Source of the DNA: CBDUXZ01 sp965371325 [NCBI: uncultured bacterium]
GTDB lineage: Bacteria; JAUYMQ01
Direction: 5' to 3'
DNA: 6,377 nt
NCBI GenBank assembly: GCA_965371325.1
Contig: CBDUXZ010000119.1
Coordinates: forward strand, 1-6,377
Part shown: positions 3,795 to 6,377 of the stretch, one piece after another
How the letters are laid out: every line of letters begins with the position of its first letter
Numbering within the stretch: the stretch's first letter is position 1
Program-made: the position numbers and the translations under genes
The notes under the pieces: generated by a model
The model's input: only the letters and a program-made list of their open reading frames with translations
What the model was told of the DNA's origin: nothing
Databases searched by the model: none

Positions 3795-4244
3795 ATGCGC
3801 GGTTCTGGTTCCGGCCCGGCCGGGTTCGTCCTGGACAACACCACACGGCACGGCCCGGGCTCGGCGGGCATCCTGATCCTGCGGATCGGTGTGGGCGGGA
3901 TGCTGCTCTTCGGCCACGGCTGGCAGAAGCTCTTCGGCTTTGCCGAGAAGGCGGGCGTTTTCCCCGATCCCCTGGGGGTCGGAAGCGCCGTGAGCCTGGG
4001 GCTCGTCGTATTCGCCGAGTTCTTCTGCGCAATCGCGCTGATTCTCGGATTTGCGACGCGGCTGGTGGCCTTCCCCCTCGTGATTAACATGCTCGTGGCC
4101 GCGATCGTCATCCATAGCGACGATCCCTGGGGGAAGAAAGAGTTCGCGCTCCTGTACGCCGTACCCTTCATCACGCTACTTTTTGCGGGTGGTGGAAAAT
4201 ATTCCCTCGATGCGATCGTCTGGCCCCGCACCATCGGAAAATAG
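3795..4244 (+). CDS. DoxX family integral membrane protein
   Basis: This 149-residue protein has four predicted membrane segments, near residues 24-41, 65-86, 89-107 and 116-132. DoxX-family hallmarks are GHGWQKLFGF (40-49) after the first segment, VVFAEFFCAIALILGFATRL (71-90) and FALLYAVPFITLLFAGGGKYSLD (central part, 117-139). DoxX proteins are small membrane subunits related to the thiosulfate:quinone oxidoreductase small subunit. In some bacteria they couple to redox enzymes in oxidative-stress defence, but many have no known function. The hydrophilic N-terminal ~20 residues are longer than in many family members, so a later start cannot be excluded. However, GGGAGG lies just ahead of this ATG (spacing about four bases). 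It precedes the methyltransferase gene by 121 bases on the same strand. The distance allows but does not require co-transcription, and a function in arsenic redox handling would be speculation. Confidence 0.9.
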   Translation: MRGSGSGPAGFVLDNTTRHGPGSAGILILRIGVGGMLLFGHGWQKLFGFAEKAGVFPDPLGVGSAVSLGLVVFAEFFCAIALILGFATRLVAFPLVINMLVAAIVIHSDDPWGKKEFALLYAVPFITLLFAGGGKYSLDAIVWPRTIGK

Positions 4245-4365: not shown

Positions 4366-5538
4366 ATGGCTTCACCCCCTGATTGTTCTACGCTGGATGT
4401 CGAAAGTGCGGTGCGTGAGCGATATGGGTCGGCGGCCCGGGAGCGCGAGGAGGCGCTCTGCTGCCCGGTGGAATACGACCCCCGACACCTCGATGCCATC
4501 CCCCAGGAGGTACTCGAGCGGGACTACGGCTGCGGCGATCCGTCGCGTTACCTGAAAGAGGGAGACGTGGTTCTCGATCTGGGGAGTGGTGGCGGCAAGA
4601 TCTGCTTCATCGCTTCGCAGGTTGTGGGCAGGAAAGGGCTCGTCGTCGGTGTCGACATGAACGACGAGATGCTCGCCCTCGCCCGGAGGTCGGCCCCCGA
4701 GGTCGCGGAGCGAATTGGCTACGCGAATGTGACCTTCCACCGGGCACGTATCCAGGATCTCGCGCTCGATCTCGATCGCCTGGAGGCCCGGTTGAAAGAG
4801 AACCCCGTGATGAATGTCCGTGAGCTCGCCGGTCTCGAAGAGTACGCGGAACGGATGCGGCGCACGGAGCCGCTCATCGCCGATGACTCGGTGGATGTCG
4901 TAATTTCGAACTGTGTATTGAACCTCGTCCGGGACGCTGACAAGTCATGGCTTATCCGCGAGATCTTTCGCGTGGTCAAGCCAGGCGGGCGGATCGCCAT
5001 TTCGGACATCGTGAGCGACGAGATCGTCCCCGATCAGCTAAAGGCCGACCCCAAACTCTGGAGTGGATGCATCGCGGGCGCATTCCAGGAAGACGAACTC
5101 CTGCGCCGCCTGGAAGATGCCGGCTTCTACGGGATCGCCCTTGATAGCTGGAGTGACACGCCCTTCAGTGTCGTCGAGGGGATCGAGTTCCGCGCTGTCA
5201 CGATCACGGCCCGGAAGGGGAAGGAAGGCCCCTGCTACGAGGGGAATCACGCGATCATCTACAAAGGGCCGTGGAAACAGGTGGAGGATGACGACGGCCA
5301 CCTGCTCCGGCGGGGTGAGCGGACGGCGGTCTGCGCGAAGACCTTCCGGATTTATTCGCAGCCCCCGTACTCTGGGCACCTTATTCCCGTTCCACCCCGT
5401 GTCGAGGTGCCCGAAGGCGAACAGAAGGCCTTCGACTGCGGCCGAACCGCGCCGCGTCACCCCAGGGAGACCAAGGGCGCGGGCTATGACGAAACTTCTG
5501 AGGGGAGTGGCGGCTGCTGCCCGCCCGGAGCCGCCTGA
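4366..5538 (+). CDS. arsM: Arsenite methyltransferase-like protein with C-terminal Cys-rich extension
   Basis: This 390-residue class I SAM-dependent methyltransferase has motif I VVLDLGSGGGKICF (68-81), the acidic VVGVDMNDEML (93-103), and VDVVISNCVLNLV (176-188). PGGRIAISDIVSDE (206-219) and SGCIAGAFQEDEL (233-245) follow. Cys56 (in YGCGDP), Cys183 and Cys235 correspond in position to the three As(III)-binding cysteines that ArsM enzymes need; Cys32-Cys33 may match the fourth. The reaction would be stepwise methylation of arsenite with SAM in the cytoplasm. About 40 residues (130-172) are inserted between the SAM core and the Cys183 motif. Residues ~284-390 form an extension with YKGPWKQVEDDDGHLLRRGE (299-318), Cys290, Cys323 and Cys358, and a C-terminal GGCCPP. 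I recall similar extensions on arsenosugar-type ArsM proteins, but this needs a search. The start was chosen from AGGAGG seven bases upstream, rather than a GTG at 4333. The PiT gene begins two bases after its stop. Confidence 0.88.
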   Translation: MASPPDCSTLDVESAVRERYGSAAREREEALCCPVEYDPRHLDAIPQEVLERDYGCGDPSRYLKEGDVVLDLGSGGGKICFIASQVVGRKGLVVGVDMNDEMLALARRSAPEVAERIGYANVTFHRARIQDLALDLDRLEARLKENPVMNVRELAGLEEYAERMRRTEPLIADDSVDVVISNCVLNLVRDADKSWLIREIFRVVKPGGRIAISDIVSDEIVPDQLKADPKLWSGCIAGAFQEDELLRRLEDAGFYGIALDSWSDTPFSVVEGIEFRAVTITARKGKEGPCYEGNHAIIYKGPWKQVEDDDGHLLRRGERTAVCAKTFRIYSQPPYSGHLIPVPPRVEVPEGEQKAFDCGRTAPRHPRETKGAGYDETSEGSGGCCPPGAA

Positions 5539-5540
5539 TC

Positions 5541-6377
5541 GTGGGTGAATTGCTCGTCCTGTCGGCGCTTCTTCTGGCTTTCTCCAACGGCGCCAATGAC
5601 AACATGAAGGGTGTGGCGACCCTCTACGGCGCCGGTTCGCTCTCCTACCGCGGCGCGCTCAGCCTGGCGACGCTCTCTACCGCGATGGGCTCGCTCCTGT
5701 CGGTCCCTCTGGCAATGGGCCCCGTGAAGGTTTTCGCAGCGAAGGGGCTGGTACCCGAAAACGTCCTTGACGTGTCTTTTCTCGCTTCGGTGGCGTTGGG
5801 CGCGGCGGTTACGGTGCTCGTTGCGACCCGCGTCGGACTTCCAATCTCGACCACCCACGCCCTGGTTGGCGCGCTCGCCGGCGCCGGAATAATCGCCGCG
5901 GGGCCGAAGGTCAATTTCGCGGCGCTTGGCGGGCTCGTCCTCCTTCCGCTTCTCGCGAGCCCGCTCATGGCGCTTCTTCTTGCGCGCGGTACCTACCGCG
6001 CATCCCGCGATGCAGGCGAGCGGCTCGGTGTGGAGATGACTTCCTGCGTCTGCGTGGGGAAAGAGTGGGTGCCCGTCGGATCGCCAGCGGCGGCGGTACA
6101 GCTTCAGCTCTCCGTCGGTGTCGGGAACGACCCCGAGTGCAGTGATCGGTACATCGGCAGGATTGCCGGCATCTCCGCCCAGCGGCTTGTCTCGGCCGGT
6201 CACATTGTGAGCGCCGGGCTCGTCGGCCTGGCCCGCGGAATGAACGACACGCCCAAGATTCTCGGCCTCATCGTCGGGGCCTCCGTGCTCAGCCCTCTCC
6301 ACGGCGCAGTCGCGATCACCGCCGCGATGGCCCTCGGGGGACTTCTCGCCGGGCGCCGGGTCGCCGTGACGATGGCA
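5541..6377 (+). CDS. pit: PiT-family inorganic phosphate transporter (cut by window edge)
   Basis: Reading from the GTG at 5541 gives 279 open codons that run off the right edge. The N-terminal membrane segment contains FSNGANDNMKGVATLYG (14-30). GLPISTTHALVGALAGAG (99-116) and SAGLVGLARGMNDTPKILG (224-242) follow. These duplicated GANDN and GMNDTPK motifs and the PISTTHA segment are the signatures of PiT/PHO4 carriers, which take up phosphate (often as a metal complex) and also arsenate using an ion gradient. About nine or more hydrophobic stretches are visible. The hydrophilic loop between the two halves (about 150-222) holds Cys169, Cys171 and Cys200, which I do not associate with ordinary phosphate permeases. 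No in-frame ATG lies between the upstream in-frame stop (5499) and 5541, so GTG is the likely start. Its two-base distance from arsM and weak Shine-Dalgarno (GGAG, 11 bases away) point to translational coupling. A role in arsenic metabolism is inferred from context. Confidence 0.93.
   Translation, partial: MGELLVLSALLLAFSNGANDNMKGVATLYGAGSLSYRGALSLATLSTAMGSLLSVPLAMGPVKVFAAKGLVPENVLDVSFLASVALGAAVTVLVATRVGLPISTTHALVGALAGAGIIAAGPKVNFAALGGLVLLPLLASPLMALLLARGTYRASRDAGERLGVEMTSCVCVGKEWVPVGSPAAAVQLQLSVGVGNDPECSDRYIGRIAGISAQRLVSAGHIVSAGLVGLARGMNDTPKILGLIVGASVLSPLHGAVAITAAMALGGLLAGRRVAVTMA

Follow-up and report, generated by a model that had tools for sequence, protein, structure and literature searches.

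A distinct clade of PiT-like transporters with a three-cysteine loop and an association with ArsM arsenic methyltransferases

The 6,377 nucleotides at positions 1 to 6,377 of contig CBDUXZ010000119.1 of the uncultured bacterium CBDUXZ01 sp965371325, referred to below as the window, end within a gene for a PiT-like transporter that directly follows the gene for an ArsM-type S-adenosylmethionine (SAM) methyltransferase. The transporter belongs to a distinct clade within the PiT family, whose members carry altered signature motifs in both repeats, keep or lose three loop cysteines together, and co-occur with ArsM across genomes. Because these properties are joined by the occurrence of members in organoarsenical gene clusters, we consider it about an even chance that the window protein represents a PiT-derived subfamily serving arsenic metabolism, probably an arsenate importer with a cytosolic three-thiol As(III) site. 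The features at issue are the following.

4366..5538, + strand: ArsM-type SAM methyltransferase, 390 aa, with methyltransferase domains
5541..6377, + strand: PiT-like transporter (PF01384), GTG start, 279 aa, open at the 3' end of the window
5586..5612, + strand: N-terminal repeat signature NGANDNMKG, residues 16-24; NGxN[DA]xxK in 81/81 clade members
6027..6176, + strand: soluble central insert separating the membrane halves, residues 163-212; predicted hairpin and short helix
6045..6047, + strand: Cys169, first of the C-x-C pair; Cys in 72/81 clade members
6051..6053, + strand: Cys171, second of the C-x-C pair; Cys in 72/81 clade members
6138..6140, + strand: Cys200, third loop cysteine; Cys in 73/81 clade members
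6234..6260, + strand: C-terminal repeat signature RGMNDTPKI, residues 232-240; [RH]GxNDxPK in 73/81 clade members

The clade and its altered signatures

Relatives were gathered in two ways. Public genomes were first scanned for relatives of the window protein by six peptide patterns, two of which include the loop cysteines and bias the outcome; this gave 23 loci from many phyla, 18 of them with an ArsM-like frame. A whole-protein profile built from 21 PiT proteins (A1) was run over genome samples of several phyla, with at most 8-14 first-look candidates scored per genome, and found clade members in 12/188 genomes of the phylum of locus L003, 13/199 of that of L001, 35/199 of that of L008, 4/135 of that of L018 and 1/246 of the Streptomyces phylum. 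Members lacking the cysteines score 336-416 bits with this profile, and the three cysteine columns therefore do not decide recovery in the surveys. Where one genome encodes both kinds of transporter, the scores of the clade member and of the ordinary PiT protein lie far apart (481 vs 85 bits in genome G008), and a quick tree of 81 members with five ordinary PiT proteins splits the clade off on a long stem, with a Shimodaira-Hasegawa-like approximate likelihood ratio support of 100. The 81 comprise the window protein and 80 proteins from loci, four genomes (G335, G590, G530, G552) contributing two each; dropped were broken or partial members (L010, L021, L023, L192), another PiT protein (L195) and a locus without one (L026), and L196-L198, each of which has C-x-C, and L199, which has no triad, were found later and stand outside the set. 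Phage records gave no match to the window transporter, and our searches of an open-licence library listed no paper whose title or opening abstract describes the clade, its signatures or its triad.

The window protein is nevertheless a PiT protein by profile and by fold. It scores 111 bits against the Pfam PHO4 model PF01384 (curated cut-off 33.7), and its AlphaFold2 model, with a mean predicted local distance difference test value (pLDDT) of 85.3, has a sole strong structural match in TmPiT (6L85), at Z 21.0 and a root-mean-square deviation of 3.4 over 238 residues (VIA), the next row reaching Z 9.0. The model of the relative from L003 (pLDDT 89.8) likewise has the PiT fold, with a template modelling score of 0.72 to 6L85 (Foldseek). 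Two repeats, STTH motifs and the fold are common to TmPiT and the window protein, but identity is only ~22%, and the latter has NGxNDxxK and RGxNDxPK for GANDVANA as well as the insert with C-x-C...C. E. coli PitA, a proton-coupled carrier of the same family, has a similar Lys in its signature, but the window protein has Lys in both repeats and reaches only 21.2 bits with the PitA model, for which the cut-off is 800. The CysP sulfate permease (NF053884), also a PiT-type permease but for an anion other than phosphate, is matched weakly, at 39.7 bits by the window protein and 99.2 by the Acinetobacter relative (cut-off 400).

The departure from the family lies chiefly in the two signature motifs. 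Canonical PiT proteins possess a GANDVANA core in both repeats, and the His that precedes the C-terminal core is critical in human PiT2, according to a study of that protein (PMC3126765). Our controls were 34 distinct, unselected PiT proteins also found by the A1 profile, a set short of a full family sample and cleared of fragments. Most have an IGANDVANA-type N-terminal and an HGSNDVANA-type C-terminal signature; the NDxxN form occurs twice in 30 of the 34, and Lys in one signature (NDAQK) in three. The window transporter, with NGANDNMKG and RGMNDTPKI, lacks the canonical signature of phosphate-transporting PiT proteins, and in the clade Arg nearly always replaces the His before the C-terminal core. 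Since the altered residues fall in the two signature motifs of the family, the clade may have changed its substrate or its coupling ion. A Lys at the signature position could stand in for a cation, and its presence in both motifs suggests that sodium coupling may have been lost. A sequence-only reading of the window had proposed a carrier specialized for arsenate or an arsenic product; the changed signatures, compared with ordinary PiT proteins, and the separate clade fit the idea of specialization as such.

The cysteine triad of the central insert

The 279 encoded residues include exactly three cysteines, at 169, 171 and 200, all in the central loop and all encoded within positions 6036-6150, in agreement with the sequence-only reading; as the gene is incomplete, the freedom from cysteine elsewhere applies to these 279 residues alone. 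In the clade the same three columns are the sole well-conserved cysteines (72, 72 and 73 of 81, the next best cysteine column reaching 28/81), set in a loop of variable length most of whose other columns have no residue that reaches 50%. The spacing from Cys171 to Cys200 is 29 residues here and 12 to 114 among relatives, with a median of 35. Chance cysteines were rejected on the strength of these counts in an otherwise variable loop. A trait common to all PiT proteins was rejected as well, C-x-C occurring nowhere in any of the 34 distinct controls.

All three cysteines are present in 72 of the 81 members, including L025, in which C-C replaces C-x-C and the third cysteine follows 12 residues later; eight members have no loop cysteine and one, L144, with its loop cut to 26 residues, has a single one. 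Four of the members devoid of them keep a long loop (48 to 66 residues) in which all three are replaced (L016, T/A/A; L138, A/Y/T; L182, S/S/S; L186, M/E/I); the loop being variable, the replacement letters depend on how it is aligned, but the lack of cysteines in it holds regardless. On the best tree, built without the loop columns, loss of the triad takes 7 changes, and bootstrap trees need 7-8; when only well-supported branches are considered, no fewer than four are required. The three cysteines thus behave as one unit, kept or lost together. Joint loss in separate lineages is a prediction of a single three-thiol site, and the distribution over members (72 with all, 8 with none, 1 with one) is that of cysteines required together, as in a three-thiolate As(III) site.

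ArsR, ArsD and ArsM bind As(III) at three-thiolate sites, which resemble the triad in their arsenic context and in comprising three cysteines of which two lie near each other in the chain; the triad differs in lying inside a transporter loop, and no sequence kinship is claimed. In the AlphaFold2 model the insert is built of strands 169-179 and 185-195, a helix at 197-203 and a further strand at 205-212, with pLDDT of 76-84 in the blocks spanning 161-220; Cys169 and Cys171 are placed on a strand and Cys200 on the short helix. PMC3126765 reports that the corresponding domain of rat PiT2 was assigned experimentally to the cytoplasm, and that human PiT2 transports phosphate even without the loop between its halves, which is likewise cytoplasmic; a regulatory part would fit this. 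Given the cytoplasmic loop of the rat and human homologues, the insert of the window transporter would by analogy face the cytosol. The conserved cysteines suggest that the transporter has its own sensor site for arsenic or some other soft metal.

Arsenic genes in the genomes and neighborhoods of the clade

The gene preceding the transporter encodes a SAM methyltransferase with four conserved arsenic-site cysteines, the combination that defines ArsM: in an alignment of 22 rows of relatives, cysteines 32/33, 56, 183 and 235 are invariant. Their counterparts in CmArsM, with which they were paired by motif and not by alignment, are conserved cysteines 44, 72, 174 and 224 (PMC5552862). The protein scores 361.6 bits against the arsinothricin ArsM model NF040538 and 201.7 against the arsenite methyltransferase PRK11873 (NF008823), below the curated cut-offs of 500 and 263. 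With the arsM stop at 5536-5538 and the transporter's GTG at 5541, the gap is two bases, as the sequence-only reading had it; in L003 the transporter's TTG start overlaps the arsM stop, and in L007 stop and start are likewise superposed. No gene for the radical SAM enzyme ArsS was recognized among the window genes tested, the window stopping inside the transporter gene.

The association extends to whole genomes. Scoring ArsM of the aligned type (A3) at E up to 1e-30, and with Fisher tests that treat related genomes as independent, we found it in 47/60 genomes with the clade vs 73/526 without it over three phyla, an odds ratio of 22. The separate counts are 29/35 vs 34/164 in Planctomycetota (199 genomes), 11/13 vs 17/186 in the phylum of L001 and 7/12 vs 22/176 in that of L003. 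ArsS is also commoner with the clade in Planctomycetota (19/35 vs 46/164), but this link vanishes among ArsM-bearing genomes (17/29 vs 23/34), while that with ArsM persists in ArsS-bearing (17/19 vs 23/46) and ArsS-free (12/16 vs 11/118) genomes of the phylum. The arsenite pump Acr3 shows no association with the clade in Planctomycetota (12/35 vs 68/164), and general arsenic resistance was rejected on that ground as the cause of the link. In genomes of the first scan, at a looser limit (E 1e-20), ArsM was found in 18 of the 19 searched, the exception being a Streptomyces genome. In the surveys, ArsM is encoded at some site in 42 of the 52 genomes that have a cysteine-bearing member.

Gene order conveys a similar message. 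For 38 of the 72 cysteine-bearing members a same-strand ArsM gene is no more than about 2 kb away (for L137 via a split contig), and ArsM, ArsS or an arsenosugar glycosyltransferase occurs in the fetched flank of 43; the loci of the 34 controls have no ArsM in their flanks, mostly about 1.5 kb. Among 85 related loci, 22 contain ArsS-like genes (a representative scores 404 bits to TIGR04167, cut-off 300) and nine contain arsenosugar glycosyltransferase-like genes of each of two types. On an Acinetobacter portensis plasmid, both glycosyltransferases, a methyltransferase and the transporter stand in a row, with mtnP adjoining on the other strand. Among members without a nearby ArsM, the Pfam names of neighbors give no common partner.

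Two members devoid of the triad occupy organoarsenical clusters of other kinds. In Streptomyces ochraceiscleroticus (L016) the transporter follows genes of the 5-enolpyruvylshikimate-3-phosphate (EPSP) synthase and phosphoglycerate mutase types (1679-7014), in a locus that also has ACR3, ArsO, ArsC-like and ArsR-like genes; no ArsM was found in this genome. The locus resembles the bisenarsan (bsn) cluster, in which BsnM and BsnN, of the same two enzyme types, act on As(V), with no SAM enzyme present (PMC12159101). In Priestia megaterium (L199) a clade member without loop or loop cysteines is found in an arsinothricin-type cluster downstream of ArsL (699.7 bits, cut-off 450), with ArsN1 and ArsC nearby, and directly after the gene for VcpD, an ArsD-related vicinal-cysteine protein (5285-5665; 186.1 bits, cut-off 90), which is perhaps a separate counterpart of the loop cysteines. 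It is an attractive idea, drawn from one locus each, that in pathways which methylate As(III) the transporter itself would supply the cysteine function, that a separate small protein would do so in Priestia, and that the function would be absent where As(V) is used directly. The region fetched for the Pseudomonas amygdali arsinothricin cluster contains no PiT gene. In Burkholderia gladioli, pitA lies near arsM and arsL in the arsinothricin region and is described as a low-affinity phosphate/arsenate carrier (PMC8552651); it differs in its opposite orientation and in having arsR and aioAB as neighbors, and is compared by that description and not by placement in the clade.

Proposed role and alternative readings

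Arsenic entry into organoarsenical pathways is usually ascribed to leaky phosphate carriers. If the window transporter belongs instead to a subfamily serving arsenic metabolism, its role would lie above all in methylation and organoarsenical synthesis and not in general phosphate supply. Arsenate, or arsenate together with phosphate, would enter through the carrier, be reduced to As(III) and be methylated by the co-transcribed ArsM; As(III) would bind the three cytosolic loop cysteines as one three-thiol site and throttle further uptake until ArsM had consumed it. In a variant, the same loop site would hand As(III) over to ArsM. Taken as a complete scheme, in which a PiT protein for arsenate or methylarsenicals, freed of sodium coupling, acts as the entry gate to organoarsenicals and a cytosolic Cys3 As(III) sensor gates transport or passes arsenic to ArsM, the proposal is a tentative one, possible but with the balance against it. 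A subfamily with these properties would be a dedicated arsenic carrier, and possibly a case in which a metalloid bound to thiols controls a transporter; the small soluble loop is its directly testable part, and the combination of NGxNDxxK, RGxNDxPK and C-x-C...C would be a marker for finding organoarsenical gene clusters.

Several observations weigh against the proposed role. Of the 52 genomes in which the surveys found a cysteine-bearing member, 10 show no ArsM at E 1e-30, and 29 of the 72 such members have no arsenic gene in the fetched flank, some contigs being short. L144 has ArsM adjacent and no triad, and the Priestia member lacks one too, although its pathway uses As(III). Adjacent ArsM is commoner with the triad than without it (38/72 vs 1/9, plain p 0.03), but the tie loses its significance in a kinship-aware comparison (4 independent pairs, median p 0.5), and p is 0.16 when flanking arsenic genes of whatever kind are counted. 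An expectation that loss of the triad follows loss of ArsM was not borne out, the relation being non-significant and ArsM persisting in five of nine genomes without the triad (G075, G446, G473, G537, G015). Owing to the lack of a significant kinship-aware tie, the arsenic-free flanks and the cases of ArsM without cysteines, the triad is characteristic of the clade more than of the neighborhood. The sequence-only reading, which had linked both the carrier and its cysteines to the adjacent arsM, thus finds support for the arsenic link of the carrier, given the genome-wide and local counts, and falters for a tie of the cysteines to arsM adjacency. The comparison of loop cysteines with PiT proteins elsewhere, which had been set beforehand as its test, came out in the same divided way: the 34 ordinary PiT proteins lack C-x-C, and many clade members carry it with no arsenic gene in the fetched flank.

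These last members lend themselves most readily to a soft-metal or redox site without any arsenic role, in which Zn, Cu, Fe or a disulfide switch would regulate a PiT protein carrying metal phosphate. A triad behaving as a unit suits any thiolate metal site, and in L161 the transporter adjoins a ZnuA-like gene. We find this rather doubtful, since the clade follows ArsM both genome-wide and in gene order and the ZnuA-like neighbor was seen in that one locus only.

It is less probable, and on the whole unlikely, that the protein carries an organic arsenical such as methyl- or dimethylarsenate, inward or outward, with cysteines that hold a trivalent product or dock ArsM. The two-base spacing to arsM, the alteration of both signature motifs, and the association in Planctomycetota, where the clade goes with ArsM but shows no link with Acr3, would all accord with such a substrate. 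Known PiT proteins, however, are importers of inorganic oxyanions. The Streptomyces member, moreover, resides in a bsn-like cluster of a genome in which no ArsM was found, and the published scheme for that pathway uses inorganic arsenate (PMC12159101).

An ordinary phosphate carrier, offsetting arsenate competition or feeding phosphorolysis and bearing incidental cysteines, would agree with PF01384 membership, the TmPiT-like fold and the description of B. gladioli pitA, but is quite improbable, since neither repeat retains the GANDVANA core, the C-terminal His critical in human PiT2 is replaced as well, and the triad is conserved in an otherwise variable loop.

A few further observations concern other genes of the window and of related loci. 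A gene of the DoxX family precedes arsM in the same orientation:

3795-4244, + strand: DoxX-family gene (PF07681), 57 bits against the HvfX model (cut-off 80)

The window also contains a fatty-acid hydroxylase/sterol desaturase gene (1736-2569, - strand); a sterol desaturase gene adjoins the Acinetobacter arsenosugar cluster (L024, 7042-7851, - strand), and related frames appear in L156 and L177, so that sterol desaturase-type genes near arsenic loci possibly signify a lipid link, or chance. In L158, L162, L164, L166, L174, L175 and others, an ArsM-like domain lies inside open frames of 600 to more than 1300 codons, which are possibly fusions of ArsM with other domains. VTT-DUF547 frames and frames for MerA-like oxidoreductases of the flavin adenine dinucleotide (FAD) type recur in related arsM/arsS loci (29 and 20 of 84 loci; examples are L177, 3688-6365, and L189, 78-2420, both on the - strand), a recurrence which suggests that they are further genes of arsenosugar clusters.
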